NCBI RefSeq assembly: GCF_007097385.1
Contig: NZ_VJZS01000021.1
Span: forward strand, 1 to 64,000
Length of the DNA stretch: 64,000 nucleotides
Direction: 5' to 3'
DNA from: Flavobacterium sp. ZT3R18
GTDB taxonomy: Bacteria; Bacteroidota; Bacteroidia; Flavobacteriales; Flavobacteriaceae
This document shows, in pieces, positions 17,339-35,190 of this stretch (the first letter of the stretch is position 1; each line of letters starts with the position of its first letter). Both the position numbers and the translations under genes were made by a program. A model generated the notes under the pieces. That model saw only the letters and a program-made list of their open reading frames with translations. It did no database searches and was not told the origin of the DNA.

Positions 17339-17413
17339 GTAATTAATCTAAATAAGGATAGTTAAACAAAGTTTAATCTTTACTTTTGTGTTATTCTTAT
17401 TTATTCTAAATAA
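17339..17413 (+). promoter_or_regulatory. Promoter and palindromic operators of the first TonB receptor operon
   Basis: TACTTTTG (17381-17388) fits the -7 consensus TAnnTTTG. A perfect 7-3-7 palindrome TTATTTA-TTC-TAAATAA lies at 17397-17413, just downstream and over the expected start of transcription. A weaker copy (GTAATTA-ATC-TAAATAA) lies at 17339-17355. The same box follows the promoters of the other iron-island units, so I infer a shared repressor, most likely a Fur-type iron regulator. The regulator itself is not in the window. Confidence 0.6.
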
Positions 17414-17446: not shown

Positions 17447-19816
17447 ATGAAATATTTGAATCTACGTTTACCCTACTTTTCAATACTTGCATTTCTATTT
17501 ATACTTTTCACAGCAACCTCTTTTGCCCAAGATACAGGAGGCATAAAAGGAACAGTTCAAACCAGTGACAACAAACCTGCAGAGGGTGTTTCTGTGACTC
17601 TAAAAGGATTAAACAAGACAACCATTGCTGATAATAATGGTGTATTTACAATTAAAAACGTAGCCGACGGGAGCTTCACTCTAGTTGTAACTTTAGTTGG
17701 TTATAATGATGTAGTGCAAAACGTAACAGTAACAGCTGGCGAAACAGCAACGGTAAACATCAACCTCTCCTTATCGAATAACGAATTGAATCAAGTGGTG
17801 GTTTTAAGTAATAAAAGTGCTTTCAAAACCAACCGTGTTTCGTCTTCCCTTCGATTGCAATCCCCTATTATCGAAATTCCACAAAACATTCAAATCGTAA
17901 CAGGAAAACTAATTCAAGACCAACAAATTAATAATATGCTTGAAGGTGTTACCCGTAACGTGAGTGGGGCTACACGTGTAGAGCATTGGGATAATTATGC
18001 TAATATTACCATGAGAGGTAGCCAAGTTGCTGCTTTTAGAAATGGTATGAACGTGAGTACCTCTTGGGGTCCATTGACGGAAGACATGAGTATGGTAGAA
18101 CGCATAGAATTTGTAAAAGGTCCTGCTGGTTTTATGCTAGCCAACGGAAATCCTAGTGGTTTTTATAATGTGGTTACAAAAAAACCAAGTGGAAGAAACA
18201 AAGGAGAGGCAAGTTTGTCTTTGGGTAGTTTTGGTATGTATAGAGGCACAGTTGATTTTGATGGTAAATTGACTAAAAACGGAAAACTTTTGTACCGTTT
18301 CAATGCAATGGGAGAAAAGAAAGATAGTTACCGTGATTTTGACTTTAATGACCGTTATACTTTTGCACCTGTATTAAAATATTTAGTTACAGACAAAACT
18401 TCAGTAACGCTAGAATATACACAACAATTTTCTAAAGTAAATGCAATTGGTAGTAACTACGTTTATGCCAAAAATGGTTACGAAGAGCTATCTAGAAGTT
18501 TTACTACATCAGAGAAAGAATTAGACCCTACAAGAATGCTAGAAAGAAATCTTCTGGGTATTGTAGAACACAAAATAAATGACAAATGGAAACTTACTGC
18601 CCAAGGTTCTTATTTGAATTATAAGCAAGAAGGAATGTCATTATGGCCAAGCGGTTTTGATGATACAAACGCTGCAATCCTTAAAAGAGCTGGTAATAAC
18701 TGGGATATTTTAGGAAAAATATATGTAGGACAAGCTTATGTAAATGGACAATTTCAAACAGGAGTTGTTCCGCATAAAATATTATCAGGAATAGACATGA
18801 GTGATAAGACCTATTATCATGACTGGTCACAATCTTTTGTTTTGCCCGATTTGGATATTTATAATCCAGTGCATGGTATTCCTGCATCGCCTACTTTTGA
18901 CAGAAGTAAAGACATCAAAGACAGAGGTGTAAAATATCAAAATAATTATAAAGGTTTTTATGCACAGGACGAATTAGGATTCCTTGATAATTCTCTGCGC
19001 TTAACATTGGCAGGAAGATACACTATTCTAAAAGCTGGAGATGTATATTCTGGTAGTTCAAAAAATGAAAAATTCACTCCGCGTATTGGATTGAGTTATT
19101 CTATTAACAAAAACACAACTGCTTATTTTGTACGAGATGAATCTTTTACAGAAAATTACGGAAGCGATTGGCTAGGAAAAAGTTTTAGTCCTCAAACTGG
19201 AACGAACCTAGAGTTAGGTTTCAAAAGAGACTGGATGAACGGAAAATGGAATTCTACGATTGCTGCCTATCAAATTACCACAAACAATGTTCTTACCTTA
19301 GATGCTGAACATTCTACACCAGCTAAACAATTTAGCAGAGAAAGTGGTCAACAAAAGGTAAAAGGTTTTGAAGTTGACATTAGAGGAGAAATCTTCAAAA
19401 ACTTTGATGTTGTTGCCAACTATGCTTTTACAGAAGGAAAAACAACAAAAGATACTGACCCAAACATGGTTGGAAATCAAATTGCAGGAACTACAAGACA
19501 TATCCTAAATACTTGGTTAAACTACAAAGTAGATAATGGATTACTGAACGGATTTGGTGTTTCATTAGGATATCAATATCAGATAAAAAGAGCTCCTTGG
19601 TACATTTCGCCAGATAACACTGGTACACTACCTGATTATTTCCGTGTAGATGGCGGTTTGTCTTATCAAATAAAAAAAGTATCAGTAAATCTTATAGTTA
19701 ATAATATTCTCAACAAATATTTGTATTCTGGAGGATATTACAGCTATTCAAAAATGTACTACTGGCAAGCAGAAGCAGGAACCAACCTACGCCTATCTGT
19801 TGCCTACAAATTCTAG
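17447..19816 (+). CDS. TonB-dependent siderophore receptor with carboxypeptidase-regulatory-like N-domain
   Basis: The 789-residue outer-membrane protein has a signal peptide (to about residue 27, TSFAQ). A beta-sandwich CarboxypepD_reg-like domain follows (about 32-115: GGIKGTVQTSDNKPAEGVSV, then DGSFTLVVTLVGY). The plug domain (IVTGKLIQDQQINNMLEGVTRNVSGA; MVERIEFVKGPAG) and a 22-strand barrel end in the aromatic terminus LSVAYKF. The plug is of the siderophore receptor type (FhuE/ferrichrome-like). It starts an operon with two small membrane proteins and a PepSY protein, and iron control is suggested by the palindrome 34 bp upstream. Confidence 0.92.
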   Translation: MKYLNLRLPYFSILAFLFILFTATSFAQDTGGIKGTVQTSDNKPAEGVSVTLKGLNKTTIADNNGVFTIKNVADGSFTLVVTLVGYNDVVQNVTVTAGETATVNINLSLSNNELNQVVVLSNKSAFKTNRVSSSLRLQSPIIEIPQNIQIVTGKLIQDQQINNMLEGVTRNVSGATRVEHWDNYANITMRGSQVAAFRNGMNVSTSWGPLTEDMSMVERIEFVKGPAGFMLANGNPSGFYNVVTKKPSGRNKGEASLSLGSFGMYRGTVDFDGKLTKNGKLLYRFNAMGEKKDSYRDFDFNDRYTFAPVLKYLVTDKTSVTLEYTQQFSKVNAIGSNYVYAKNGYEELSRSFTTSEKELDPTRMLERNLLGIVEHKINDKWKLTAQGSYLNYKQEGMSLWPSGFDDTNAAILKRAGNNWDILGKIYVGQAYVNGQFQTGVVPHKILSGIDMSDKTYYHDWSQSFVLPDLDIYNPVHGIPASPTFDRSKDIKDRGVKYQNNYKGFYAQDELGFLDNSLRLTLAGRYTILKAGDVYSGSSKNEKFTPRIGLSYSINKNTTAYFVRDESFTENYGSDWLGKSFSPQTGTNLELGFKRDWMNGKWNSTIAAYQITTNNVLTLDAEHSTPAKQFSRESGQQKVKGFEVDIRGEIFKNFDVVANYAFTEGKTTKDTDPNMVGNQIAGTTRHILNTWLNYKVDNGLLNGFGVSLGYQYQIKRAPWYISPDNTGTLPDYFRVDGGLSYQIKKVSVNLIVNNILNKYLYSGGYYSYSKMYYWQAEAGTNLRLSVAYKF

Positions 19817-20578: not shown

Positions 20579-20711
20579 ATGAAATCGCCATGACAAAACT
20601 TGTCGCAATTGAAAATCATCGAATACAAAAACAGATATTAACCGATGAGATAAACACCAATGAAGATCTAGCGATACCATATTCCAGCAAAAACAATATT
20701 AACTACATATG
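20579..20711 (+). repeat. 130-bp start-codon-linked repeat block, copy 2
   Basis: The block runs from ATGAAATCGCC (20579) to TACATATG, whose ATG (20709-20711) is the start codon of the PepSY gene. It is the counterpart of 7483-7615 (minus strand), with scattered substitutions and a 2-bp length difference. A short frame inside it reads MTKLVAIENHRIQKQILTD and ends at a TGA that overlaps the PepSY start codon (ATGA). Confidence 0.75.
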
Positions 20712-22256
20712 AATAACAGGAACTATAACATCTATTTTCACACCCATACTGTTAGCGGTATTGTAATAAGCGTGGTACTTTTTGTCATTTTCTTTGCTGG
20801 ATCTTTCTCTTTTTTCAAAGATGAAATCAGCAGTTGGGAACGAAATGAATCTTTTGCAAGTACGAAAAAAATTTCACTCAATATTGACAGCGCTTTAAAC
20901 TCCATTGCTAAGAAACACAACTTGCACGGACGCAACGTTTCTATTTCGCAATCCAGTGCCGAAAGAAGGGTCAGTGTATCTCTCGAAGAATCAAAAGATA
21001 AATTGGCTACTAAAAAAGACAAGGAAAGTCAGTTTTTTTATTTAGATACAAAAACCTTCAAAACAGCGACCTATGATGAATCCTATTCGCTGGGAGAATT
21101 CTTGTATCGCCTCCATTTTTTAGCTCAAATCCCTTATCCTGTTGGGTATTATCTATCTGGATTTGTGGCTTTATTTTTTTTATTTGCTATAGTAACCGGT
21201 GTTTTATTGCATTGGCAAAAAATAGTATCCAACTTTTATCTCTTTAGACCCAAAGAAAAACTCAAAACCATGTGGACTGATGCGCATACTTCATTGGGTA
21301 TTTTGGGGTTGCCTTTTCAATTTGTATATGCGGTTACAGGAGCCTTTTTTATGATTAAATTGCTAATTGTAGCACCCGTTGTGGTCGCTTTGTACAAAGG
21401 AGATCAGGATAAATTATACAAAGAATTAGAATACAGCACTACTCCTTATGAGTATAAAAACACAACCCTAAAACCACCTTATCACATTGACAAACTGGTG
21501 GCCGAAGCTAAAAATAAATGGAACGATTTTGATATTACCGAAGTTGAAATTCAAAATTATGGCGATGCCAATATGCATCTTATCGTTGAAGGACAATTAG
21601 CCGATAATCAAAAATTTACTGGAATAGGTAAATTGGTTTACAAAGTAGCTACTAGAAAAATTATTTCGCAAAAAGATCCTTATGCACAAACTACTTATTT
21701 GGATGGTGTAAAAAACGTGCTATACCGAATCCATTTTGGTAATTACGGCGGTTATGCTTTAAAACTAATTAGTTTTGCTATGGGAATAATTACTTGTTTT
21801 GTGATCATTTCTGGCGTTATGATTTGGTTGGTTGCCAGAGACAAAAAGAATATGCCTGAAAACAAAAGACGTTTCAATCGCAGAGTGGTTCGGATCTATA
21901 TAGCCATAAGTTTAAGTATGTACCCCATAACGGCTTTGACTTTTATAGCCTGTAAACTATTTTATCCGCTCAATCAATCTGGCATTTACACGGTTTATTT
22001 TGTGGGTTGGCTGCTCTTGACCGTATTTTTTATTCTGAAAAGGAACGATGCTTTTACCAATAAATACTGCTTATTGTCTGGTAGTATTTTAGGTTTTTTG
22101 GTTCCAATTACCAACGGAATAGTTACAGGAAATTGGTTTTGGAATTCTTTTACTCACAATAAATTTCAGCTGTTTTTTGTAGATATTTTTTGGATTCTCT
22201 TGGCGTCCATTTCACTTTATGCGGGATTGAAACAAAAAAATAGTACCGCAAAGTAA
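20709..22256 (+). CDS. PepSY-associated transmembrane protein (PiuB-like iron-uptake reductase)
   Basis: The 515-residue inner-membrane protein has the PepSY_TM layout. Helix 1 follows a His-rich start (NIYFHTHTVSGIVISVVLF). Helices near 130-170 (LYRLHFLAQIPYPVGYYL), 195-235 (DAHTSLGILGLPFQFVY) and 345-375 (VLYRIHFGNYGGYALKL) carry conserved histidines that probably bind haem, and about four extra C-terminal helices follow. Such proteins are thought to move electrons across the membrane to reduce ferric siderophores in the periplasm. Its start codon is supplied by the upstream repeat block. Confidence 0.85.
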   Translation: MNNRNYNIYFHTHTVSGIVISVVLFVIFFAGSFSFFKDEISSWERNESFASTKKISLNIDSALNSIAKKHNLHGRNVSISQSSAERRVSVSLEESKDKLATKKDKESQFFYLDTKTFKTATYDESYSLGEFLYRLHFLAQIPYPVGYYLSGFVALFFLFAIVTGVLLHWQKIVSNFYLFRPKEKLKTMWTDAHTSLGILGLPFQFVYAVTGAFFMIKLLIVAPVVVALYKGDQDKLYKELEYSTTPYEYKNTTLKPPYHIDKLVAEAKNKWNDFDITEVEIQNYGDANMHLIVEGQLADNQKFTGIGKLVYKVATRKIISQKDPYAQTTYLDGVKNVLYRIHFGNYGGYALKLISFAMGIITCFVIISGVMIWLVARDKKNMPENKRRFNRRVVRIYIAISLSMYPITALTFIACKLFYPLNQSGIYTVYFVGWLLLTVFFILKRNDAFTNKYCLLSGSILGFLVPITNGIVTGNWFWNSFTHNKFQLFFVDIFWILLASISLYAGLKQKNSTAK

Positions 22257-22408: not shown

Positions 22409-22463
22409 TTGCTATTATCTTATTTATTTTTACATTTGCACTATTTTTATTTATTCTAAATAA
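22409..22463 (+). promoter_or_regulatory. Promoter and palindromic operator of the ankyrin/DUF2271/ApbE operon
   Basis: TTG (22409-22411), a 19-bp spacer and TACATTTG (22431-22438) form a good Bacteroidota promoter. The perfect palindrome TTATTTATTCTAAATAA lies at 22447-22463, 8 bp after the -7 element, the same spacing as at 17397. This marks the start of a second iron-controlled unit. Confidence 0.65.
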
Positions 22464-22539: not shown

Positions 22540-24060
22540 ATGAAAAAGAATCTTTTTATTTCTTTTGCCCTAGTCGCCACTTTATTGGTTAATGCGCAGC
22601 AAAAAAACACACTTTTGGAGCAGTCTTTTTGGAAAACAGCCCCAGATGTAGCTGCGGTTCAAGTTGAAATTGCAAAAGGAAACAGCCCCTCAGCATCGAC
22701 CGCAAATGCTTTTGATCCCGTTGTTTTGGCAATTAATAATGAAGCACCCGCAGCAACGATAAAATTTTTATTAGAGCAACCCGGAAATGAAGTGAATAAA
22801 TCGACTCACGACAACCGTATTTATTTACACTGGGCTGCTGGAAAAGGGAATCTAGAAATCGTAGAATACCTTATAGCCAAAGGGTCGGATGTTAATCTAG
22901 AAGACAGTCACAGTACATTTCCTGTTACAGCTGCGGCAAGTAACGGTGTAAGCAATACAGCAGTGTATGAAGCCTTTTTTAAAGCGGGAGTCGATCCTAA
23001 GAAAAAATACAAAGACGGGACAAACCTGCTGCTTATGGCGATACCTTTCGATAAAAACTTAACAATTTCTAATTATTTTGCAACAAAGGGATTATCACTA
23101 AAAGATGTCGATTCCGATGGAAATACCGCTTTTAATTATGCTGCAAGAACGGGAAATATACCTTTCTTAAAAACGCTATTAGAAAAAGGAGTAAAATACA
23201 CTGACAATGCGCTTATCATTGCCGCACAAGGTACTCGCAAAGAGCCAAATACTCTTGAAACCTACAAATACTTGGTTGAAGATTTAAAATTAAAACCAAC
23301 TGTAACTAGCAAAGAAGGGCAAACGGTGCTTCATTTCCTTGCAACCAAACCCAATCAAACAGCCATTATTAACTACTTTTTAGCCAAAGGAGTAGAGCTA
23401 AACAAAGCCGATAACGAAGGAAATACTCCATTGATGGTTGCTGCTTCGGTTAGAGAAACCAACGGAGCATTAGAACAATTTTTACCTGTTGTAAAAAACA
23501 GCAATGTACTAAACGCAAAAGGAGAATCAGCCCTAACAATGGCAGTAAAATCAGGAACACCAACTGCTGTAGAACTTCTTTTGAACAAAGGTGCCGATGT
23601 TAAAATTACCAATAAGGACGGAAATAATTTAGGTTTCTATTTAATAGAATCGTACCGTCCACAAATGATGGGAATGGCACGACCAGCAGAAGGTGTAAAT
23701 CCTCAAAAACAAGATCCTTTTGCCGTAAAAACAAAATTACTTCAAGACAGTGGATTAAATTTAGCTACTCCTCAAAAAGATGGAAACACGCTATATCATT
23801 TGGCTATAGCCAAAAATGATTTAGCTTTGCTGAAAAAAATAGCCGATTTAAACATCGATATCAACCTTAAAAACAAAGATGGTTTAACCGCTTTGCACAA
23901 AGCAGCCATGATTTCTAAAGATGATACTATCTTAAAATACCTAGTATCAATTGGGGCAAAAAAAGAAATCACAACCGAGTTTGACGAAAGTGCTTATGCC
24001 TTGGCAAAAGAGAATGAAACTTTAACAAAAAACAACGTATCTATAGAATTCCTAAAATAG
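22540..24060 (+). CDS. Exported ankyrin-repeat protein
   Basis: The 506-residue protein has a signal peptide (to about residue 19, LVNAQ). At least eight ankyrin repeats follow, for example RIYLHWAAGKGNLEIVEYLI, NTAFNYAARTGNIPFLKTLL, TVLHFLATKPN, SALTMAVKSGTPTAVELLL and TALHKAAMISKDDTILKYLV. It should be a periplasmic protein-binding scaffold. It heads the unit with the DUF2271, PepSY-flavodoxin and ApbE genes. I infer that it holds or protects a partner in this redox system. Its stop codon is immediately followed by the 30-bp tandem repeat. Confidence 0.88.
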   Translation: MKKNLFISFALVATLLVNAQQKNTLLEQSFWKTAPDVAAVQVEIAKGNSPSASTANAFDPVVLAINNEAPAATIKFLLEQPGNEVNKSTHDNRIYLHWAAGKGNLEIVEYLIAKGSDVNLEDSHSTFPVTAAASNGVSNTAVYEAFFKAGVDPKKKYKDGTNLLLMAIPFDKNLTISNYFATKGLSLKDVDSDGNTAFNYAARTGNIPFLKTLLEKGVKYTDNALIIAAQGTRKEPNTLETYKYLVEDLKLKPTVTSKEGQTVLHFLATKPNQTAIINYFLAKGVELNKADNEGNTPLMVAASVRETNGALEQFLPVVKNSNVLNAKGESALTMAVKSGTPTAVELLLNKGADVKITNKDGNNLGFYLIESYRPQMMGMARPAEGVNPQKQDPFAVKTKLLQDSGLNLATPQKDGNTLYHLAIAKNDLALLKKIADLNIDINLKNKDGLTALHKAAMISKDDTILKYLVSIGAKKEITTEFDESAYALAKENETLTKNNVSIEFLK

Positions 24061-24061
24061 C

Positions 24062-24181
24062 TTCGACAGGCTCAGCTACCGAGGGAATGATTTCGACAGG
24101 CTCAGCTACCGAGGGAATGATTTCGACAGGCTCAACTAACGAGTCGATGCATTCTACAGGCTCAGCTACCATTCGACAGTT
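24062..24181 (+). repeat. Four 30-bp tandem repeats between two genes of the operon
   Basis: The units start at 24062, 24092, 24122 and 24152; the first reads TTCGACAGGCTCAGCTACCG plus AGGGAATGAT. Units 1 and 2 are identical and units 3 and 4 have diverged. They begin one base after the ankyrin stop codon and end 28 bp before the DUF2271 start. The frame running through them into DUF2271 is an artefact of the 30-bp period. Confidence 0.85.
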
Positions 24182-24209
24182 TCCTAATAATTACAAAATA
24201 ATTACATAC

Positions 24210-24692
24210 ATGAATTCAATACTAAAAATAGCTCTTGCAAGCGCATTCATCTGCCTACTCTCATTACAAACAACAGCACAAACCAGCAAATACAAATGCA
24301 TGCTCCAAATGTCCAACTACATGGGCGAAGGGGCATATATTGTGGTTTCGCTTGTAAATGCCAAAGGTGAATACGACAAAACACTTTACGTAATGGGCGA
24401 CGACAAAAAATGGTACAAAACCCTGAAAGAATGGCATAAATTTTATTCTAAAAAGCCTACGGACATCAGTGCAAAAACAGGAGCTTCGGTAACTGGTGGC
24501 GACCGTAGCATCACTACCTTAGAAATTGAAGATTCTAAAATTAACAAAGGCTACAAATTGCGCTTTGAAACAGCTGTTGAAGACAATAAATATTACACAG
24601 CCGATTTAGAAATACCCCTCACAACCGAAGGAATTGCTAACAAAGTAGAAGGTAAAAGTTATATTCGCTACGTAAGATTAAGCAAAATCTAA
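24210..24692 (+). CDS. DUF2271-family periplasmic protein, candidate FMN carrier
   Basis: From the ATG at 24210 the protein is 160 residues with a clear signal peptide (to about residue 23, QTTAQ). The order of segments (exported start, MSNYMGEGAYIVV, then TGASVTGGDRSITTL, then YTADLEIPLT) fits DUF2271. Residues 90-93, TGAS, match the end of the [ST]GA[TS] motif to which ApbE attaches FMN. However, the acidic residue expected three positions before the Thr is replaced by Ser87, with Asp85 two places earlier. Flavinylation is inferred from this motif and from the apbE gene two genes downstream. Confidence 0.75.
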   Translation: MNSILKIALASAFICLLSLQTTAQTSKYKCMLQMSNYMGEGAYIVVSLVNAKGEYDKTLYVMGDDKKWYKTLKEWHKFYSKKPTDISAKTGASVTGGDRSITTLEIEDSKINKGYKLRFETAVEDNKYYTADLEIPLTTEGIANKVEGKSYIRYVRLSKI

Positions 24693-24705
24693 ATATTGAA
24701 AGTAC

Positions 24706-24810
24706 AAAGACTGATTCCACAGATTATCACAGATTATAGTTAAATTTCATAGGTTTTATAGCCTAGAATGACAAAAAAAAATCTGTGTAAATTTGTGGAA
24801 TCTGTGTTAA
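24706..24810. repeat. GATTCCACAGATTATCACAG inverted repeat
   Basis: The segment from ACTGATTCCACAGATT to AAATTTGTGGAATCTGTG forms imperfect arms about 25 bp long around a 50-bp centre, related to the interior of the elements at 6271, 33426 and 58697. It separates the DUF2271 gene from the PepSY-flavodoxin gene. No terminal TATGAC ends were found here. Confidence 0.6.
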
Positions 24811-24852
24811 CAATTTTAAGCACACCAATAATTTTTAAAATAAATTACAGCA

Positions 24853-27051
24853 ATGACTCTTTCTTTTTGGCGTTACACACACTTGGCTTTGGCAGTGTTT
24901 TCAGCTGCATTTTTAGCAGTAGCATCCGTAACAGGTATCCTACTTGCATTAGATGCTATTCAGGAAAAAACGCCATCCTACCGAGTAGAAAATTTCGAAA
25001 AAATAACCCTAGGAGAATCCTTGCCCATATTACGCAAAGCCTATCCTGAAATAACCGAATTAAGTGTTGACCACAATCAGTTTGTAACCCTGAAAGCCAT
25101 TGACCTAGAAGACAATGATGTCAATGCTTACATTGACCCTAGAACTGCAAAAATAATAGGTACGCCCCTAAAAAAAAGTGAACTTATACAATGGGTTACA
25201 GCGTTTCATCGTTCTTTATTTCTTCACGAAACGGGGCGTTTTTTTGTTGGCATTATAGCCTTATTATTAGTGTTCATCTCTATTTCGGGTTTTGCGTTGG
25301 TTCTTAACAGGCAAAGGGGCTTGCGCAATTTCTTTTCTAAAGTCATCAAAGACTATTTTGCTCAATATTACCACGTAGTATTGGGTAGATTGGCCTTAAT
25401 TCCCATTCTGATTATTGCACTTTCGGGAACTTATTTATCATTAGAAAGGTTTAACTTTTTCATAGAAAAAACAGATTCACAAGAAAAAACCGAAGTTGTG
25501 GCAACCACACCTATTTCAAAAAAAGGAGCAGATTCATCTTTCTTAAAAAACACACTACTGGCTGATGTTCAAAAAATTGAATTCCCTTTTTCGGATGATC
25601 CCGAAGAATTTTACATCATTAAATTAAAAGACCGAGAAATAGAAGTCAATCAAATTACAGGTGCTGTGGTAAGCGAAGTTCTTTTTCCGACGACAACAGC
25701 ACTAACTAATTTGAGCCTTGATTTGCATACTGGTAGAGCAAGTATCATTTGGGCTGTACTACTGGCGTTTGCGTGTCTAAACATACTTTTTTTTATTTAC
25801 TCTGGTTTTGCAATGACATTCAAACGAAGATCAAGTCGCATTAAAAACAAATACAAACCCGAAGAAAGTAAATTCATTTTACTGGTTGGATCAGAGAATG
25901 GAAGTTCGCTCAGATTTGCCAATGCTATCCACAAGCAATTGCTCGCCCACGGAGAAAAAGCACATCTCACGGAATTAAATAATTATGTAGTTTTTCCAAA
26001 AGCTGAACATCTCATTATTTTTACCTCAACCCACGGATTGGGAGATCCACCACATAATGCAAGTAAATTTATATCACTTGTTAACAAAACCGAACAACAG
26101 CAAAAAATCAATGTTTCGGTGGTAGGCTTTGGATCGAAAGCCTATCCTGATTTTTGTGGTTTTGCCCGTGAAATTGATGTTGTATTGACAAAACAAAATT
26201 GGACGGAACGCTTTTTGGAATTACAAACCGTAAATGATAAATCAGCCGAAGAATTTGTAGGTTGGGTAAAATTATGGAGTGCCAAAATAGGAATTCCCCT
26301 TTCGGCTACTCCATCGCTATACAATCATGTTCCAAAAGGCTTGCAAAAAATAATGGTACTGGATAAGACCGCCATTTCGGATAAAGAACATACTTTTTTA
26401 CTCACGCTGCGGGCTAGTATGAGAACCACGTTTAATTCGGGCGACCTTTTGGCAATTTATCCCGCAAACGACACTAGAGAACGCCTATACTCTATAGGAA
26501 ATCACAAGGGCAACATACAATTAGTGGTAAAACTGCACCCTTCTGGTTTAGGTTCAGGCTATTTATATAATGTTGAAGTTGGTTCAGTTATAAAAGCGCG
26601 AATCATCCAGAATGCCACTTTTCATTTTCCGAAAAAAGCAGCCAACGTAGCCTTAATTTCCAACGGAACCGGTATCGCTCCTTTTCTTGGAATGATCGAG
26701 CAAAATAAGAAAAAGACATCGATTCATTTGTATTGCGGCTTCCGAAACGCAACCGAAACTGTTTTAGGATATAAAAAATTCGCAGCAGCTAGTATCCAAA
26801 GACAGCAGCTACAAAGTTTTCATTTGGCTTTATCACGCGAAGCCGAACATTATCATGTGATGGATCTTATCAAACGAGATGCTGAATTTTTTACTGATTT
26901 ACTGATCCAAGGAGGAGTTGTAATGATTTGCGGTTCACTTGCTATGCAAAAGGATGTAGAATCTGTCCTTGATATGCTCTGCCTTAGCAGAACCGTTATG
27001 GGCATTGCAGATTATAAAGCCAATGGACAAGTGTTTACGGATTGTTATTAA
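24853..27051 (+). CDS. PepSY membrane domain fused to flavodoxin and FAD/NADPH reductase
   Basis: The 732-residue fusion has an N-terminal PepSY_TM part (about 1-325). Its histidines sit in RYTHLALAVF, FHRSLFLHETGR, YYHVVLGRLAL and LDLHTGRASI. A flavodoxin domain follows (about 336-485: FILLVGSENGSSLRFANAI; FTSTHGLGDPP), then a cytochrome-P450-reductase-like FAD/NADPH module (RERLYSIGNHKG; ISNGTGIAPFLGM; HLYCGFRN). This is a one-protein path from NADPH through FAD and FMN to haem and across the membrane. With DUF2271 before it and apbE after it, it probably feeds extracytoplasmic flavin or ferric iron. Confidence 0.88.
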   Translation: MTLSFWRYTHLALAVFSAAFLAVASVTGILLALDAIQEKTPSYRVENFEKITLGESLPILRKAYPEITELSVDHNQFVTLKAIDLEDNDVNAYIDPRTAKIIGTPLKKSELIQWVTAFHRSLFLHETGRFFVGIIALLLVFISISGFALVLNRQRGLRNFFSKVIKDYFAQYYHVVLGRLALIPILIIALSGTYLSLERFNFFIEKTDSQEKTEVVATTPISKKGADSSFLKNTLLADVQKIEFPFSDDPEEFYIIKLKDREIEVNQITGAVVSEVLFPTTTALTNLSLDLHTGRASIIWAVLLAFACLNILFFIYSGFAMTFKRRSSRIKNKYKPEESKFILLVGSENGSSLRFANAIHKQLLAHGEKAHLTELNNYVVFPKAEHLIIFTSTHGLGDPPHNASKFISLVNKTEQQQKINVSVVGFGSKAYPDFCGFAREIDVVLTKQNWTERFLELQTVNDKSAEEFVGWVKLWSAKIGIPLSATPSLYNHVPKGLQKIMVLDKTAISDKEHTFLLTLRASMRTTFNSGDLLAIYPANDTRERLYSIGNHKGNIQLVVKLHPSGLGSGYLYNVEVGSVIKARIIQNATFHFPKKAANVALISNGTGIAPFLGMIEQNKKKTSIHLYCGFRNATETVLGYKKFAAASIQRQQLQSFHLALSREAEHYHVMDLIKRDAEFFTDLLIQGGVVMICGSLAMQKDVESVLDMLCLSRTVMGIADYKANGQVFTDCY

Positions 27052-27129
27052 TGTAAAAATCACTTGAATTATGTTATTTTGTCATTTCTCCTTCGTCAAA
27101 ATGACACACTGATACTTTTAAATTCTAAT

Positions 27130-28131
27130 ATGATAACCAAACACCAATTTCTATTTCTTTTTTTAATTCTTTGCAACTTAACAAGCAATGGACAAACACT
27201 TCGAAAAAGAACCACCCTACTTATGGGAGGTCGATTTGACATTACTATTGTCGCCAAAGATTCGCTGGCAGCAGAACAAAACATAGATGCCATTATTGCC
27301 GAAATCACAAGAATCGAAAATTTAATATCCGACTGGAAATCGGACTCGCAGGTGTCCGAAGTGAACCAAAACGCAGGTATTCGTCCTGTGAAAGTGGATA
27401 GAGAAGTTTTTGAGTTGACTCAAAGAGCGATTCAGTTTTCTGAAGTAACGAATGGCGGTTTTGACATCAGCTTTGCGGCAATGGATAGAATCTGGAAGTT
27501 TGATGGGTCAATGACAGCCATGCCTTCGGCGGAAGCCATCAAAAAATCGGTTGAAAAAGTGGGCTATAAAAATATAATTTTAGACAGTGTTCAATCTACC
27601 ATTTTTCTTAAACAAAAAGGAATGAAAATTGGATTTGGAGCTTTAGGCGAAGGATATGCAACCGATAAATGCCGGGATATGATGTTAGCCAAAGGGATCA
27701 AAGCTGGAATTATAAACGGATCAGGAGATATGAGCACTTGGGGAAAACAACCTAACGGAAAAGCTTGGAACATTGGTATTACCAATCCCTTTCATCCTGA
27801 TACACTTTTGGCGGTTGTTCCATTACAACAAGATGCTGTAACCACCTCTGGAAGCTATGAAAAATTTGTTGTTTTTGATGGCAAACGTTATTCGCATATT
27901 ATCAATCCAGCAACAGGTTATCCCGTAACAGGATTATGCAGTGTGACGGTTTTTGGATCTAATGCGGAGACTGCAAACGGCTTGAGTACCTCCTTAATGG
28001 TATTAGGCAAAACTGCAGGACTACTTTTGCTCGACAAATACCCTGATTATAGTTGCATCATGATTACGGACAATGGAAAAGTAGTAAAATCTAAAAACTT
28101 CCGAATTAAAAAGTTTAAAGCTAGTTTTTAG
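27130..28131 (+). CDS. apbE: FAD:protein FMN transferase (ApbE)
   Basis: From MITKHQF the protein is 333 residues, with a signal peptide ending near TSNGQ (about residue 22). It then has the ApbE signatures LLMGGRFDITIVAKD, ISDWKSDSQVSEVN, IGFGALGEGYATDKC and YSHIINPATGYPV (metal and FAD site). It transfers FMN from FAD to a Thr/Ser of exported proteins. An upstream TTG at 27064 would add 22 residues before the signal peptide and is unlikely. The gene lies 79 bp after the PepSY-flavodoxin gene and closes the operon. Confidence 0.9.
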   Translation: MITKHQFLFLFLILCNLTSNGQTLRKRTTLLMGGRFDITIVAKDSLAAEQNIDAIIAEITRIENLISDWKSDSQVSEVNQNAGIRPVKVDREVFELTQRAIQFSEVTNGGFDISFAAMDRIWKFDGSMTAMPSAEAIKKSVEKVGYKNIILDSVQSTIFLKQKGMKIGFGALGEGYATDKCRDMMLAKGIKAGIINGSGDMSTWGKQPNGKAWNIGITNPFHPDTLLAVVPLQQDAVTTSGSYEKFVVFDGKRYSHIINPATGYPVTGLCSVTVFGSNAETANGLSTSLMVLGKTAGLLLLDKYPDYSCIMITDNGKVVKSKNFRIKKFKASF

Positions 28132-28190: not shown

Positions 28191-28292
28191 GTGGTAACAT
28201 TGTGATTCTTTTTTCGTGAAATTTAAAACAAAAAAGCTTTTTTATACATCTTCCCAAAAACAAAACTATTCGTGTTAAAAATAAAATACTGC

Positions 28293-28500
28293 GACTGAAA
28301 ACTGAGACTGAAAACTGAGACTGAAAACTGAGACTGAAAACTGAGACTGAAAACTGAGACTGAATACCGAGACTGAAAACTGCGACTGAAAACTGCGACT
28401 GAATACCGAGACTGAATACCGAGACTGAATACCGAGACTGAAAACTGAGACTGAATACTGAGACTGAATACTGAGACTGAAAACCGAGACTGAATACTGA
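28293..28500 (-). repeat. Array of sixteen 13-bp tandem repeats
   Basis: From 28293 to 28500 the unit GACTGAAAACTGA (variants GACTGAATACCGA and GACTGAATACTGA) repeats 16 times, exactly 208 bp. The array ends 6 bp before the stop codon of the AraC gene. It fills the gap between the convergent apbE and AraC genes. Confidence 0.9.
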
Positions 28501-28506: not shown

Positions 28507-29502
28507 TCAACTCTCCTTTTTCAACTTACTAGGTAAATACCCAAAAGTCTTTTTGAAAGCCACTGTAAAATGTTGGGGGTTTTTATAACCCAACTCTTCC
28601 GAAACGGTACTAATAGAACAATCTTTTTCTACTATCAATTGTTTAGCATAATCCATTCGAACTTGAGTTAAACAATTGAAAACAGTGGTATTGAACACCA
28701 TTTTGAAATACTTTTTTAGCTTAAAAGTGTTCAAACCTATCTGTCCAGCAATGCTTGCAAGACTATGCTTTTCTTTAAATTGTGTTCTTAAAATATGCTC
28801 TGCTTCTAAAATTTTAGAATAATCATAACTACTCAAATTCGTATGCAACTGAAGATTCTTTTCTTCATTAATGATAGCGAATAAGTACGAAAGCATTTCT
28901 ACAACTTTAGATTCTAAAAAAGCTTTTTTTATAACACCCGAATAATTACAGCACTTAATATCTTCGATTATCTCATACAATTTTGGGGAAATAACTTTGC
29001 TAGTATCCCACATTTTATAGGCTTTTTTACCGTCAATTGCTTCAGACAATTGAGGAATCGCAATTGCAAAATTATGATGAAATAATTGTTGCAAATAATT
29101 TTCTGTAAAAGTAATTTCCAACGTTTTCCTTCTTTGGGTACGATAGTTTAAAGTTCCTTTTATAATTGGCAAGTAAAACAAATTGTAATGGCCTTGCGGA
29201 ATATAAATTCCTATTTCATTCGGGTCATCAGGACAATATTCATTATCCCCTTCAATCTCAAAATGCATTTTTATAAACGAAAAATCGTGTTCAACTTCAA
29301 TTGAATAAGAATCCTGTTCGATAGTCAAATCTCTAAGAACTAAATGAATCCCATTCAGTGCATAATCGGTAACAATACCTTTAATTCCTTTGTAATCACA
29401 ATCTGTTTTTTCTTCAAACAAACATTCCTTATTAAACTGAATCGGATCATCCACAACTACAAGATTGTTCTTAAAAACCTTGCTTTTCATTACTGTTCTC
29501 AT
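28507..29502 (-). CDS. AraC-family regulator of PchR type
   Basis: The 331-residue protein (or 327 from the second Met, MKSKVF) ends in an AraC DNA-binding domain: HSLASIAGQIGLNTFKLKKYFK, then CSISTVSEELGYKNPQHFTVAFKKTFGYLP. The N-terminal part includes GHYNLFYLPIIKGTLNYRTQ and RKTLEITFTENYL, the pattern of PchR-like regulators that sense a siderophore or its iron complex. It is transcribed away from the adjacent siderophore receptor at 29613, whose expression it probably controls. The two starts are about 110 bp apart, so they share a control region. Confidence 0.85.
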   Translation of the reverse strand: MRTVMKSKVFKNNLVVVDDPIQFNKECLFEEKTDCDYKGIKGIVTDYALNGIHLVLRDLTIEQDSYSIEVEHDFSFIKMHFEIEGDNEYCPDDPNEIGIYIPQGHYNLFYLPIIKGTLNYRTQRRKTLEITFTENYLQQLFHHNFAIAIPQLSEAIDGKKAYKMWDTSKVISPKLYEIIEDIKCCNYSGVIKKAFLESKVVEMLSYLFAIINEEKNLQLHTNLSSYDYSKILEAEHILRTQFKEKHSLASIAGQIGLNTFKLKKYFKMVFNTTVFNCLTQVRMDYAKQLIVEKDCSISTVSEELGYKNPQHFTVAFKKTFGYLPSKLKKES

Positions 29503-29538: not shown

Positions 29539-29605
29539 TTGGTACATCGCTTTAAAATACTGGTACTTTTGCGTAAAAATAGTAATTTTTAATCAATCTA
29601 AATAA
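29539..29605 (+). promoter_or_regulatory. Promoter and operator-like box of the second TonB receptor gene
   Basis: TTG at 29539-29541, a 22-bp spacer and TACTTTTG at 29564-29571 make a promoter. The box TTAATCA-ATC-TAAATAA (29589-29605) keeps the right half of the palindrome perfectly and 5 of 7 positions on the left. It ends 7 bp before the ATG. Being half-degenerate, it may be a weaker site, with the divergent PchR-like protein as a second input. Confidence 0.5.
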
Positions 29606-29612: not shown

Positions 29613-31991
29613 ATGACTTTCAATTCTCAAAAAGTAAAAAATATTTTTACTTTAACCATGAAAATGGCTTTTATATTTTACATTTTAATTGCTACAAATG
29701 CTTTTGCACAGCAAACTCAAGGAACAATAAAAGGTATTGTAACGACATCCGACGATCAGGCTGGTAGCTCGGTAACCGTTTTGATTTCGTTACTCAATAA
29801 ATCAACAATTACAAAAGAGGATGGTTCTTTTATATTCAATGCTGTACCCACAGGCACTTACGAATTACAGATAGAACTAAACGGATATGAACCTATAAAA
29901 AAACAAGTTATAGTATCGCAAAATAAAACGACAGAAGTTGCTGTACAATTACAATCTTCATTAAAACAATTAAATGAAGTTGTAGTCGTTTCGGCAGCTA
30001 AGAAATTTGCTGAAAAGAAAAGCGAATATGTTTCAAGACTGCCTATTAGTAATCTTGAAAACCCACAAGTATACACTGTTGTACCCAAAGAGCTGTTGCA
30101 GGAACAAATAGTTGTTGATTTTAGAAGTGCCTTAAACTCGGCTCCTGGTTTAAACAACGTAACTCAAAGTGTGGGTTCTGGAGGTGTTGGCTTAAGTTTA
30201 AGAATGCGTGGTTTTAGTGGTTCATCAGCAGCAGGATCTATTCGTAACGGAATGAACACTAACTGGGTAACGATGAGTGACCCTGTAAACTTAGAAAGTA
30301 TCGAAGTAATCAAAGGACCATCTGGGACGTTGTTTGGTTCTGCATTGACTACTTACGGAGGCCTTATTAACAGAGTGACAAAAAAACCATTCGAAACCAC
30401 CAAAGGAGAAGTGAGCTATTCTACTGGCAGTTGGGCTCTAAGCCGTACTACTATTGATTACAATACTCCTCTTAACGAAGATAAAACAATACTTTTTAGA
30501 GTAAATGCAGCTTTAGACAATCAAAAAACCTGGCAAGATTATGGAAAAAGCAGCACCTTTGTAGTTGCCCCTTCGTTTACCTATAAAGTAAGCGACAAAT
30601 TAACGTTAGACTTCGATTTAGAATTATATAAGGGAAGCCGTAACTCGATTTCTATCGGTTTAGGAAACCCTGGCCCAACAGCGGCCAAAAGTCTTAATGA
30701 TTTGAATTTTGATTTCAAAAAATCATATTCAACAGATGATTTACAATCTGAGGCTAAAAATACTAATGTTTACGCAAGAGCTACTTACCAATTATCAGAT
30801 CAATGGGTGTCGCAAACTAATTTCTCTAATGCTTTTACAGACAACAAAGCCAACTATTTGTTTTTACTAATCAATACCGATGCAAATTTACAAAGAAGAC
30901 TATACAACATTAATAGTGTTTTCAAAACAACTCAACTCCAGCAAAATTTCATTGGTAATTTTAAAACAGGAAGTATTAAACACCGATTATTGCTAGGGCT
31001 TGATTATACTTACATCAGTACTAATGACAACAGATGGTTAATTAACTCCTATGATGTTGTAACAATTAACGGGACAACACCATTCATCAATATGGAAAAA
31101 TACAAATCATTAATTGCTGCAATGCCTGCGCCAACGGTAACCAACAATAGAGATTTAAGAACAACTAGTGCCTACGCATCGGATGTCGTAAATTTTACCA
31201 ATAAATTAATTGGAATGGCAAGTGTTCGATTTGATCACTACGAAAATAAAATTGCCAATTACAATCAAAATGCAGTTTCGCCGAAATTCGGTTTAATTTA
31301 TCAAGTTGTAAAAGATAAAGTTTCGATTTTCGGAAATTACATGAACAGTTTCTCAAATGTTGCTCCAGGCACTACTGCAGCTAATCCGGCTGAAGTAACC
31401 GAATTTAAACCTGAACAAGCCAATCAGTTAGAAGGGGGTGTAAAAGTAGAATTGTTAGGCGGAAAACTGAACGGGACTTTGAGTTATTATGACATTGAAG
31501 TAAAAGACAAATTGCGTACCGATCCAACAAACAATATGTATTCTATTCAAGATGCCACACAAAGAAGTAAAGGTTTTGAAGCTGATTTGATTGCAAATCC
31601 ATTTAGAGGATTCCATATTATAGTAGGATATGGGTACAATGACAGCGAATATACCAAAGCAAATGCAACGACTCAAGGCAAAAGACCTTATTCTACTCCA
31701 GCCAATGTAGCCAATCTTTGGATGAGCTATAAAATATTAGACGGAAAAGCCAAAGGAATTGGTTTTGGTTTTGGAGGAAACACACAAAGTGACAGCTTCC
31801 TGAATGATGCCAATTCGTTTACTGCAAACGGATATACCGTAATGGATGCGACAGTGTTTTACGAAAAACAAAAAATTAGATTGGGTTTAAAACTAAACAA
31901 TATTACTAATACAGAATATTGGTCAGCCGATTATTGGGCAAACATGATGCCAACAAGACAATTGGTAGCCAATCTTACCTTCAAATTTTAA
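29613..31991 (+). CDS. TonB-dependent siderophore receptor
   Basis: The 792-residue outer-membrane protein has a signal peptide (to about residue 33, NAFAQ). A CarboxypepD_reg-like domain (QGTIKGIVTTSDD ... GTYELQIELNGYEPI), the plug (VVPKELLQEQIVVDFRSALNSAPG; ESIEVIKGPSGTLFG) and a barrel ending RQLVANLTFKF follow. It should import a ferric siderophore, here next to an esterase gene (32266) that fits an ester-type siderophore. It is divergent from the PchR-like regulator gene. Confidence 0.92.
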   Translation: MTFNSQKVKNIFTLTMKMAFIFYILIATNAFAQQTQGTIKGIVTTSDDQAGSSVTVLISLLNKSTITKEDGSFIFNAVPTGTYELQIELNGYEPIKKQVIVSQNKTTEVAVQLQSSLKQLNEVVVVSAAKKFAEKKSEYVSRLPISNLENPQVYTVVPKELLQEQIVVDFRSALNSAPGLNNVTQSVGSGGVGLSLRMRGFSGSSAAGSIRNGMNTNWVTMSDPVNLESIEVIKGPSGTLFGSALTTYGGLINRVTKKPFETTKGEVSYSTGSWALSRTTIDYNTPLNEDKTILFRVNAALDNQKTWQDYGKSSTFVVAPSFTYKVSDKLTLDFDLELYKGSRNSISIGLGNPGPTAAKSLNDLNFDFKKSYSTDDLQSEAKNTNVYARATYQLSDQWVSQTNFSNAFTDNKANYLFLLINTDANLQRRLYNINSVFKTTQLQQNFIGNFKTGSIKHRLLLGLDYTYISTNDNRWLINSYDVVTINGTTPFINMEKYKSLIAAMPAPTVTNNRDLRTTSAYASDVVNFTNKLIGMASVRFDHYENKIANYNQNAVSPKFGLIYQVVKDKVSIFGNYMNSFSNVAPGTTAANPAEVTEFKPEQANQLEGGVKVELLGGKLNGTLSYYDIEVKDKLRTDPTNNMYSIQDATQRSKGFEADLIANPFRGFHIIVGYGYNDSEYTKANATTQGKRPYSTPANVANLWMSYKILDGKAKGIGFGFGGNTQSDSFLNDANSFTANGYTVMDATVFYEKQKIRLGLKLNNITNTEYWSADYWANMMPTRQLVANLTFKF

Positions 31992-32265: not shown

Positions 32266-33378
32266 ATGAAAAAAACATTCCTCCTTCTATTTGTCCTATT
32301 TTATTTAACCCCTTCTTTTTCACAGGACAGTATAACCATTGGCACTAAACACCATATTTACTCGAAAGTGTTGAATGAAGAACGCTCTTTTTGGGTTTAT
32401 CTTCCGCCCGACTACAACAATACAAAATTTGCTCCTGCAAAATATCCTGTCGTTTATTTATTGGATGCCGAAAACAATTTTCATTCTTTTACGGGACTAC
32501 AGCAATCTTTAGCAAGAGGACCTTATGCTATGACTCCACAAATGATTGTGATAGGCATTACCAATACCAATCGAACTAGAGATTTAACCCCAACAGCAGC
32601 CAATGAACCAGCTTTTTATGACAAAAGCAAAAACTCTTTTCCGCAAAGTGGTGGCAATAAAAATTTTATATCCTTTTTAGAATCCGAATTGCGTCCCTAT
32701 ATCGATTCTCATTACAGAACATCTGGTTATAATGTATTGAATGGGCATTCTTTTGGTGGGTTAACTGCCGTGAATATTTTACTTAATCATACTCAATTAT
32801 TTAATGCCTACAACATTATAGATCCAAGTCTTTGGTGGGATAATGAAATAATGATTAAGAAAGCCGATTCCATCTTCAATAAAAAAGATTTTGAGAATCG
32901 CAGTATTTATGTGGCTATGGCTAATAAAACAAACATTCTGCAAGACACCACTACCGATATGGCAAGGGGAATTAGAAAGTTCGAAAAATTATTAGTTTCT
33001 AAACAACCAAAAAATATTCGTTGGGCTTTTAAATATTATGAAAATGAAGACCATGGAACCGTACCCATTCCAGCAGAATATGATGGTCTACGATTTATTT
33101 TCAAAGACCATTTGGTACAAGTAAAAGAAGCGGTACATGACCCATCACTTGTAGAAAAGCAATATGCAAAACTTTCGAAACAAACTGGTTTTACTTTTCT
33201 TCCAACAGAAAGTTTCTTAGATTGGATGGGAAATTATTGTCTAGAAAGAGACCAACTCGATAGTGCCCTTACTTTTTTTCAAATGGCAGAAACGGCATAT
33301 CCCAGTAGCAGTAATGTGCATTTAAGCTTAGGCAAAACGTACGAAAAAAAAGCTGCTAAAAATAAAGCTAAACTTTAA
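32266..33378 (+). CDS. Exported esterase of the siderophore-esterase (Fes/IroE-like) type
   Basis: The 370-residue protein has a signal peptide (to about residue 20, PSFSQ) and an alpha/beta hydrolase of the esterase-D/IroE type. YPVVYLLDAENNFHSF is the typical early strand, GHSFGG carries nucleophile Ser162, IDPSLWWDN follows, and His263 in NEDHGTVP is the likely catalytic His. The C-terminal 40 residues (SALTFFQMAETAYPSSSNVHLSLGKTYEKK) form a single TPR-like hairpin that stops abruptly at KNKAKL. It may hydrolyse an ester siderophore in the periplasm after uptake by the adjacent receptor. Confidence 0.82.
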   Translation: MKKTFLLLFVLFYLTPSFSQDSITIGTKHHIYSKVLNEERSFWVYLPPDYNNTKFAPAKYPVVYLLDAENNFHSFTGLQQSLARGPYAMTPQMIVIGITNTNRTRDLTPTAANEPAFYDKSKNSFPQSGGNKNFISFLESELRPYIDSHYRTSGYNVLNGHSFGGLTAVNILLNHTQLFNAYNIIDPSLWWDNEIMIKKADSIFNKKDFENRSIYVAMANKTNILQDTTTDMARGIRKFEKLLVSKQPKNIRWAFKYYENEDHGTVPIPAEYDGLRFIFKDHLVQVKEAVHDPSLVEKQYAKLSKQTGFTFLPTESFLDWMGNYCLERDQLDSALTFFQMAETAYPSSSNVHLSLGKTYEKKAAKNKAKL

Positions 33379-33831: not shown

Positions 33832-35007
33832 ATGAAGAACAAACAAACCAGTCAACCCGAAAAAAGAAGCAAACAAAAAAACAAATGGAGCAAGCTCAAC
33901 AGCTGGTTGCATTTATGGCTAGGACTCAGCTCCGGAATAATTGTATTCATTGTATCACTTACTGGAGTGTTATTTATTTTTTGCGACGACATTATTGATG
34001 GCCTTGCCTACGATTCATTGTATGTTCAAGAAGTAAAACAACAAAAACTTAGTCCGGAAGAAATCCTAAAAGCATTCAAACAAGAACGTCCCGATAGAAA
34101 AGCATCCTATTTTGTTACCTATAGGGACCCGAAAAGAACCCTAAAAATAGCCTCTTCGACCAAAGACAGAGATTTACAATTTTCTTGGGTAGATCCTTAT
34201 ACTGGTAAAGTATTAAGTTCGAGTCGTGCTTATGATTTTTTTTATATCATCGCACACATTCATAGTGGCGAAATGCCCTTCGGGAAAACTGGGCGTCTAA
34301 TTGTAGAAATTGCGGTTTGGATATTTTTAATAGAATTGGTAACGGGACTTATTTTATGGTGGCCCAAGAAATGGACTAAAACGACACGCCAGCAAAGTTT
34401 TACTATAAAGACAAAAGCAAGTTTCAAGAGATTGAATTACGATTTGCATAACGTTCCCGGATTTTATATCCTGCTTCCAGCTTTACTGATTACCATAACG
34501 GGATTAATCGTTGTCAATACACCATTAAATAATGCTACTCAAAAAGTATTAGGAGGAACACCAGACGCCTATTCTACCATGCGAGACATTAAACCAGAAT
34601 ACGATGGTAATAAAAAATTTGCGCCATTACCCCCTGTCCTCGATCAGCTTTTTGCAACAGACCCATCCTTTCAGCAAGTACGAATGTCAATTGCTTCCAA
34701 AGACAGTATAACAAGTTATTATGCAATTGCAGCGGAAGAAATAGGATTAAAAGGCATACAAAACGGCAGAATATTTACCATAAACCGATACACCGGAAAA
34801 GAAATAAAATTACCTGAATCTTTAACAAAAGGCCTAAAAATAGATGACATGACCATGAATCTACACATTGGATTTTGGGCGGGTTGGTATGGGAAATTTT
34901 TCAATTTCATAGTTGGGATTGTCTGCACAGCGTTACCCGTTACTGGTTTTATGATATGGTGGGGAAGATTCAAGAGAAAAAAAACCGCAAAAAATACTAC
35001 ATTCTAA
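33832..35007 (+). CDS. PepSY-associated transmembrane protein
   Basis: The 391-residue inner-membrane protein has four main helices and the PepSY_TM layout. The conserved histidines are in LNSWLHLWLGLSSG (helix 1), YIIAHIHSGEMPFG, RLNYDLHNVPGFYI and MNLHIGFWAGWYGK, and PepSY-like periplasmic segments (YTGKVLSSS; RYTGKEIKL) lie between them. It is a likely haem-binding electron carrier for ferric-siderophore reduction. It lies 188 bp upstream of the third TonB receptor gene, which has its own promoter. Confidence 0.87.
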   Translation: MKNKQTSQPEKRSKQKNKWSKLNSWLHLWLGLSSGIIVFIVSLTGVLFIFCDDIIDGLAYDSLYVQEVKQQKLSPEEILKAFKQERPDRKASYFVTYRDPKRTLKIASSTKDRDLQFSWVDPYTGKVLSSSRAYDFFYIIAHIHSGEMPFGKTGRLIVEIAVWIFLIELVTGLILWWPKKWTKTTRQQSFTIKTKASFKRLNYDLHNVPGFYILLPALLITITGLIVVNTPLNNATQKVLGGTPDAYSTMRDIKPEYDGNKKFAPLPPVLDQLFATDPSFQQVRMSIASKDSITSYYAIAAEEIGLKGIQNGRIFTINRYTGKEIKLPESLTKGLKIDDMTMNLHIGFWAGWYGKFFNFIVGIVCTALPVTGFMIWWGRFKRKKTAKNTTF

Positions 35008-35112: not shown

Positions 35113-35190
35113 ATATTTAGTCTAAATAAGTTTGCTGAATCGAGAATCAGGTTTTACCTTTGCAACGTTATTTTTAATTATTCCAAATAA
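35113..35190 (+). promoter_or_regulatory. Promoter flanked by two operator-like palindromes, third TonB receptor gene
   Basis: TTG (35132-35134), a 20-bp spacer and TACCTTTG (35155-35162) form a good promoter. One box, ATATTTA-GTC-TAAATAA (35113-35129), lies just upstream of -33, and another, TTAATTA-TTC-CAAATAA (35174-35190), covers the transcription start. Each matches the consensus TTATTTA-N3-TAAATAA at 13 of 14 or 12 of 14 arm positions. Confidence 0.6.

Follow-up and report, generated by a model that had tools for sequence, protein, structure and literature searches.

An exported ankyrin-repeat protein encoded with DUF2271, PepSY_TM-reductase and ApbE genes in Flavobacterium: a candidate flavin-based ferri-siderophore reductase

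In Flavobacterium sp. ZT3R18 we analyzed a stretch of 64,000 nucleotides (contig NZ_VJZS01000021.1, positions 1 to 64,000; from here on, the window) and, within it, four consecutive genes located on one strand between positions 22540 and 28131. According to their open reading frames and Pfam domains, these genes encode an ankyrin-repeat protein, a DUF2271 protein, a PepSY_TM cytochrome fused to a reductase, and ApbE. We regard it as moderately probable that the block is repressed by iron and reduces ferri-siderophores by means of flavin, as a Bacteroidota form of the known PepSY-like flavinylation systems that has an extra ankyrin subunit, which probably docks the DUF2271 carrier; the membrane electron relay probably strips iron from scavenged siderophores. 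The association of the ankyrin, DUF2271 and reductase genes is strong. The core formed by the PepSY_TM-reductase, DUF2271 and ApbE was already known, and the exported ankyrin is the new element.

The exported ankyrin-repeat protein (22540 to 24060, forward strand, 506 residues) is a long ankyrin solenoid (Pfam Ank_2, 7.8e-44). It is followed by the exported DUF2271 protein (24210 to 24692, forward, 160 residues; PF10029, 1.4e-37), which is predicted to carry flavin mononucleotide (FMN), and by the 732-residue fusion of a PepSY_TM cytochrome to a reductase half for flavodoxin, flavin adenine dinucleotide (FAD) and reduced nicotinamide adenine dinucleotide (phosphate), NAD(P)H (24853 to 27051, forward; PepSY_TM PF03929, 7.5e-35, with Flavodoxin_1 PF00258, FAD_binding_6 PF00970 and NAD_binding_1 PF00175). 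The last gene encodes the exported FAD:protein FMN transferase ApbE (27130 to 28131, forward, 333 residues; PF02424, 1.4e-80). The signal peptides of the ankyrin, DUF2271 and ApbE proteins were read from the sequence by eye and not with a predictor. The original prediction, which had placed an exported ankyrin, a small exported protein with a TGAS motif and an FMN-attaching enzyme in one unit, was borne out in place, strand and domains.

The association between these genes was measured in a draw of 249 genomes of the genus, in which DUF2271 genes were counted above 100 bits, the ankyrin orthologue at an E-value of 1e-20 and the reductase at 1e-60; 7 DUF2271 rows under 100 bits were set aside. 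There were 82 DUF2271 genes in 81 genomes, and the ankyrin orthologue was found in 82 genomes: 81 had both, none had DUF2271 only, one had the ankyrin only and 167 had neither (Fisher p 9e-66, the genomes being counted without correction for kinship). The ankyrin gene was located directly upstream, on the same strand, of 82/82 high-scoring DUF2271 genes, including both copies of genome G497, and the 82 genomes with the ankyrin were precisely those with the reductase. The sole genome with the ankyrin only (G325) has two tandem ankyrin genes that reach the contig end. Two sets of loci, which overlap in species, were also compared: set A consists of the window plus 80 loci, 78 of the 81 having DUF2271 by BLAST (all except L073, L075 and L116), and set B consists of the best 80 of 548 ankyrin relatives obtained by scanning named genomes with the ankyrin alignment. 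Among the 78 DUF2271 genes of set A, the ankyrin was upstream in 76 and the reductase downstream in 76, while ApbE was downstream on the same strand in 64, nearby on the opposite strand in 4 and out of view in 10 (some at contig ends), so that the ankyrin is more firmly linked to DUF2271 than ApbE is. Within set B, DUF2271 was the next gene in 79 of the best 80 loci, and the remaining one, L186, reaches a contig edge. In the 154 pairs of the two sets, the ankyrin and DUF2271 genes were separated by a median gap of 54 nt, 61 gaps being of 30 nt or less and two pairs overlapping by 4 nt. Gene order, whose conservation had been proposed as a check, is retained far beyond chance in the genus and in both sets of loci, and the four-gene arrangement is not due to chance.

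Outside the genus, a draw of 296 genomes of the phylum was examined, of which 22 genomes with 23 loci passed the DUF2271 cut-off; 12 of the loci are in the genus, 7 of the in-genus genomes belong also to the genus draw, and 13 further genomes with weak matches were left out. The ankyrin was upstream at 19/23 loci, namely 12/12 in the genus and 7/11 outside. The loci lacking it were L073, L075, L078 and L079, the contig of the last one starting just before DUF2271. In L073 (7958-10923) and L075 (9155-11291) ApbE and DUF2271 are fused and stand beside a short PepSY_TM_like_2 protein, with VIT1 too in L073; judging from its domains, this is a second Bacteroidota version without ankyrin. Carriers of the ankyrin block include Flavobacterium, Pedobacter, Adhaeribacter, Chryseosolibacter, Terrimonas and a Spirosoma plasmid. 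When 72,556 plasmid records were searched with DUF2271 (tblastn), 97 records matched, and the 12 inspected comprised 1 from Spirosoma, 1 unannotated and 10 annotated Proteobacterial ones. An annotated ankyrin within 5-6 kb was found at 0/10 of the Proteobacterial loci, whose gene tables are incomplete and two of which, from Marinobacter and Klebsiella, share a nearly identical gene set. The gene upstream of DUF2271 in these ten was a small PepSY or hypothetical protein in 8 and a cytochrome b in Shinella, and in the Paracoccus plasmid no gene is listed between DUF2271 and two-component genes. The ankyrin itself, searched by tblastn against the whole plasmid collection at an E-value of 1e-10, matched only the Spirosoma orthologue, with weak matches in Thermus and Calothrix.

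The acceptor motif TGAS occupies residues 90-93 of the DUF2271 protein, and [ST]GA[ST] is kept in 77/78 of its relatives. The only loss is in L078, with VGET in its place, and L078 is also the sole locus of set A, uncut by a contig end, with neither an adjoining ankyrin nor an adjoining reductase. It is a natural control, in which acceptor motif, ankyrin and reductase are all missing together. This DUF2271 gene (L078:9785-10276) belongs to genome G182, which also carries an ankyrin-DUF2271-reductase locus, L070. In the PepSY_TM part of the reductase, H10, H119, H174 and H292 are invariant in 149/149 relatives and are candidate haem ligands, the pattern being that expected of two bis-His haems; the cytosolic half is related to cytochrome P450 reductase. 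Of the NADPH-to-haem transmembrane chain that had been predicted, the domains for a NAD(P)H-flavin-haem chain and the four histidines stood, and the haem stays a candidate. The block shares these features with the PepSY-like flavinylation systems: PF03929, PF10029 and PF02424 in consecutive genes, a carrier with [ST]GA[ST] and, as far as the sequence indicates, conserved histidines able to ligate haem in the membrane domain.

The DUF2271 model had a middling predicted local distance difference test (pLDDT) score of 76.4, lowest in the acceptor loop 87-96, and gave no Foldseek match at an E-value of 0.001. A relation of its fold to C2-like beta sandwiches was considered (best second-look Z 8.2) and treated as a common arrangement. 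Sequence searches of the PDB with DUF2271 and with the PepSY half gave nothing useful; the membrane half had no phmmer match among solved structures in the PDB, FoxB included, at an E-value of 10, and its assignment to the PepSY_TM family comes from Pfam.

By comparison with known systems, PepSY, DUF2271 and ApbE together have been described as an iron-reduction system in Méheust 2021 (PMC8238504), whose passages on the subject also report that ApbE flavinylates another DUF2271 protein at [ST]GA[ST]. As in our block, the PepSY-like systems of those passages have PepSY_TM, with an NAD-binding domain in a subset, together with DUF2271 and ApbE, and they are tied to Fur control, VIT1 and TonB genes. 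They differ in having DUF4198 as a frequent secreted partner, which is missing from this genome, whereas here an exported ankyrin lies upstream of DUF2271; the word ankyrin does not occur in the main text of that paper. DUF4198 was considered as a fourth partner and rejected: it was found in 15/61 genomes of the genus, 14 also with the block and one without it, and in all 14 genomes with both it lies apart from the block. In the sections concerned of a cited set of papers (PMC8238504, PMC11334425, PMC12004947, PMC7190382), insertions in a Caulobacter PepSY-DUF2271-DUF4198 locus lower fitness in ethylenediaminetetraacetic acid, and in Alteromonas the DUF2271 and DUF4198 genes rise under iron limitation. 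The FoxB and HiuB papers (PMC12424826, PMC11334425) describe PepSY-type membrane proteins like the one here with two His-ligated haem sites; ours has in addition a cytosolic flavodoxin-FAD-NAD(P)H half and a separate flavin carrier. XusABC, as outlined in PMC13142918, shares with relatives of this locus a TonB receptor, a DUF4374 lipoprotein and a PepSY inner-membrane reductase. Unlike XusABC, the window has no XusB-like gene, its reductase carries a fused NAD(P)H-flavin half, and the genes for DUF2271, ApbE and the ankyrin accompany it. In the open-licence literature we found no paper uniting an ankyrin with DUF2271, nor, among the papers listed and judged by title and word counts, one linking a bacterial ankyrin to such a system (a Rickettsia paper that came up is unrelated), in agreement with the earlier statement that a role of the ankyrin in such a system was undescribed.

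The Bacteroidota promoter consensus is TTG/TAnnTTTG, and a promoter of this type is predicted on the forward strand at 22409 to 22438, with TTG at 22409-22411, a 19-bp spacer and TACATTTG at 22431-22438. Just behind it, at 22447 to 22463, lies an operator-like palindrome, TTATTTATTCTAAATAA, with arms TTATTTA and TAAATAA around TTC. We collected 134 ankyrin upstream regions, distinct in their last 120 bases, from both locus sets. The 17-mer was found with at most one mismatch in 76/134 of them and in none of ten rounds of dinucleotide shuffles; it was found in 0/132 regions before the reductase, 0/121 before ApbE and 12/21 before relatives of the two siderophore receptors of the window. By a loose criterion, a TAnnTTTG box followed by a related half-site is present in 103/134. 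Genome-wide the exact 17-mer occurs twice, before the ankyrin gene and, at 17397 to 17413, before the receptor gene at 17447. Six further sites have one mismatch, eight sites in all; these include one by an imelysin gene, two between thioredoxin-like and DUF4856 genes, one between divergent TonB receptor and unknown genes, and one between a ferritin gene and a small frame. Such iron genes (imelysin, ferritin, TonB receptor) are typical neighbours of Fur sites, and the motif is common to iron genes of the same genome, as in a Fur regulon. The prediction of an iron-type operator agrees with this conserved palindrome, which, judging from its sequence and distribution, is probably the operator of an iron-responsive repressor. 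A different pattern, TTTAGAATNATTCTAAA, was tried and set aside, having 3 mismatches here and a poorer fit than TTATTTATTCTAAATAA. For this bacterial group we found no paper with a published Fur consensus. Within the window, palindrome copies, one exact and several weaker, precede three TonB receptor genes (17397-17413, 29589-29605, 35113-35129 and 35174-35190).

Two TonB-dependent siderophore receptors flank the block in the window, at 17447 to 19816 (forward; TIGR01783, 6.1e-74) and 29613 to 31991 (forward; TIGR01783, 8.2e-79), both exceeding the cut-off. In 10/76 related loci a gene for a lipoprotein of 422-460 residues lies directly upstream of the ankyrin, and the gene before that one encodes a protein related to the L061 TonB receptor. 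A profile built from the ten lipoproteins and one from L068 matched DUF4374 (XusB) structures at 1.5e-26; single sequences gave no match by Pfam or phmmer, and only the family profile succeeded. These ten loci combine an XusB-type DUF4374 lipoprotein, TonB receptor and PepSY gene, as in Xus. In nine other loci the upstream gene encodes a PepSY_TM protein of 373-382 residues (Pfam-tested in five), eight of them directly behind a receptor, so that XusB- or XusC-type genes are directly upstream in 19/76 related loci. From this it would appear that the block stands where Bacteroides has XusC, or after it (PMC13142918). In the window no XusB-like gene was found by tblastn of three XusB-like proteins at an E-value of 0.01. 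The flanking receptors and these upstream genes place the block in a siderophore-receptor setting. In the ninth of the PepSY_TM loci, L128 (11024-13500, the upstream end being approximate), XusB-like, PepSY_TM, ankyrin, DUF2271, reductase and ApbE genes stand in a row; L116 and L186 have two tandem ankyrin genes after a XusB-like gene, the contig end cutting the locus, and L186 is arranged like G325.

AlphaFold2 models the ankyrin protein as an extended solenoid of ankyrin repeats (pLDDT 87.7, predicted template modelling score 0.79). In 16 divergent orthologues, down to 40% identity, W31, D59, R93 and Y95 are invariant and H90, D91 and W98 are nearly so. R93, Y95 and W98 belong to one repeat, in its finger and inner helix, at positions that in ankyrin proteins are usually variable and partner-binding; the H90-W98 region is a candidate binding site. 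The 50 matches listed by a fold search were ankyrin-repeat proteins or designed repeats, and none pointed to a partner. Two other roles were set aside: a metal-binding Met loop at 376-379, which is not conserved, and a secreted effector, since NCBIfam effector models match only far under their cut-offs.

Taking into account the domains and the published work on the same core (the relevant sections of PMC8238504, PMC11334425, PMC12004947 and PMC7190382), we infer the following mechanism, including flavinylation, electron flow, substrate, repressor and ankyrin partner. Electrons would pass from cytosolic NAD(P)H to FAD and flavodoxin-type FMN in the reductase half and on to a pair of b-haems in the PepSY_TM part. 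From there they would reach the FMN that ApbE couples to the threonine of the TGAS motif in exported DUF2271, and finally ferric siderophores imported through the TonB receptors nearby. Most probably the exported ankyrin solenoid would bind DUF2271, and perhaps the cytochrome's periplasmic face as well, so as to load or dock the carrier, and an iron-responsive repressor at 22447-22463 would turn the block off.

Several observations weigh against this mechanism. A second ApbE is encoded elsewhere in the same genome (G000:C10:57200-58816; loci L231, L232 and L242), beside a thioredoxin-like gene and divergent from the DUF4856 gene, with the two operator-like sites already mentioned lying between. 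One of the eight near-exact palindrome sites is inside a coding region, and many block copies adjoin no recognised receptor gene. Three genomes of the genus encode larger, divergent DUF2271 proteins that score above the Pfam cut-off (29-36 bits), and lack the ankyrin. In genome G525 the block copy (L084) has ankyrin and reductase genes both broken, and the copy in L103 has ankyrin and DUF2271 without a local reductase. In the ten Proteobacterial loci the same long reductase occurs with DUF2271 and without annotated ankyrin, which indicates that the chemistry itself does not require the ankyrin. Lastly, a mirror-tree comparison was rejected as a partner test: the distance matrices correlate for all six gene pairs (r 0.86-0.93) and single out no partner. 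Co-inheritance alone gives correlated trees, and therefore neither this correlation nor counts uncorrected for kinship show physical contact.

Docking of the flavin carrier is most likely, being the most economical role for the ankyrin, and its main rival is ligand or haem binding. The ankyrin could be a small-ligand binder that, instead of docking DUF2271, retains in the periplasm either the ferri-siderophore or haem destined for the PepSY cytochrome; we consider this unlikely, while giving it more weight than any other alternative. Such a role is consistent with the grouping of residues in a single repeat (R93 and Y95, which never vary, and H90, D91 and W98, which hardly do), where ankyrins normally have variable sites of ligand contact, and with the siderophore gene context and several well conserved histidines (H90 in 75/77, H265 in 77/77, H420 in 76/77 and H453 in 74/77). 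However, H265, H420 and H453 lie at a position that is usually structural in ankyrins, and the protein has no cysteine and no conserved methionine cluster. On the side of the binder, a review reports that ankyrin-type proteins interact with catalase and promote its activity, roles in hydrogen peroxide entry or haem binding having been proposed. Against such a binder, the ankyrin stays with DUF2271 while receptor, XusB-type lipoprotein and ApbE vary, a constancy more in keeping with a fixed partner than with a ligand that varies.

A second alternative, to which we attach slightly less weight again, gives the chain another target, be it free ferric iron, haem iron, copper or an envelope oxidant. 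The Proteobacterial relatives adjoin two-component systems, heavy-metal P-type ATPases, resistance-nodulation-division (RND) exporters or VIT1 transporters, and thus the module may serve different metals; the genus copies lacking a receptor neighbour point the same way. The operator, however, is the same before the siderophore receptor and by the imelysin, DUF4856, ferritin and other TonB receptor genes, and the two flanking receptors and the 19/76 loci with XusB- or XusC-type genes also argue for siderophores.

It is doubtful that the ankyrin shields or stabilises its redox partner against oxidants, as AnkB is reported to do for catalase, without taking part in electron transfer. Ankyrin-catalase pairs are known in other bacteria, and in the review sections on AnkB-KatB and Cj1386-KatA (PMC10294975) an exported or associated ankyrin is paired with a redox protein, as here; the partner there is a catalase, whereas here it is a flavinylation-type carrier with a cytochrome. 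No catalase was found beside the ankyrin gene among the Pfam-scanned neighbours in the window, and the operator lies by iron genes, though it is compatible with a peroxide regulator. That the ankyrin gene is a mere passenger of the block is very improbable: co-inheritance in blocks is common, the distance matrices of all four proteins correlate and the G525 copy is broken, but there the reductase gene is broken too, no high-scoring DUF2271 gene of the genus lacks the ankyrin, the trio persists while the flanks differ and ApbE is displaced more often, and the spacing is close.

The four genes are surrounded by what is, from its gene content, an iron-uptake island of about 20 kb, with receptors, PepSY_TM proteins, AraC and esterase. 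Besides the two siderophore receptors, it contains a second PepSY_TM protein (20709 to 22256, forward, 515 residues; PF03929, 1.3e-57), an AraC-family protein that is a possible local regulator (28507 to 29502, reverse; PF12833, 9.1e-19), an esterase-family protein (32266-33378, PF00756) that adjoins a siderophore receptor and is a possible siderophore esterase, a third PepSY_TM protein (33832-35007) and a further TonB receptor (35196-37610). A large hybrid histidine kinase follows, and then CheR and CheB genes (37841-43391). A 30-bp tandem repeat of 3.6 copies fills 24062-24170, in the gap between ankyrin and DUF2271, and lengthens the open frame of DUF2271, whose N-terminal extension is mostly translated repeat; the longer starts given by the frame finder (24087 for DUF2271 and TTG 27064 for ApbE) are probably wrong. 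The core of this repeat, TTCGACAGGCTCAG, has 16 exact copies in the genome, 9 of them on contig C14. Between apbE and the AraC gene there is a 13-bp tandem repeat of 16.4 copies (28288-28500). Rfam and tRNA scans of the window gave no matches.

To our knowledge, how periplasmic flavin carriers dock between a membrane cytochrome and its substrates is an open question, and exported bacterial ankyrins are poorly understood. The genus-wide one-to-one gene association, which extends to further families within the phylum, supplies two named partners, and the conserved candidate binding site and the iron-type operator make the questions of docking and of the role of the ankyrin experimentally tractable. 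We are evenly divided about the wider proposal that in Bacteroidota the exported ankyrin solenoid is an obligate subunit of a flavinylation-based ferri-siderophore reductase and would be the first ankyrin in an extracytosolic electron-transfer chain. It would fill the slot upstream of DUF2271 that small PepSY or hypothetical proteins have in Proteobacteria, and present the flavinylated carrier to cytochrome or siderophore through the conserved H90-W98 site. Siderophore scavenging in Bacteroidota, represented by XusABC, would be extended by a second, NAD(P)H-driven type of reductase directly behind Xus-like genes.

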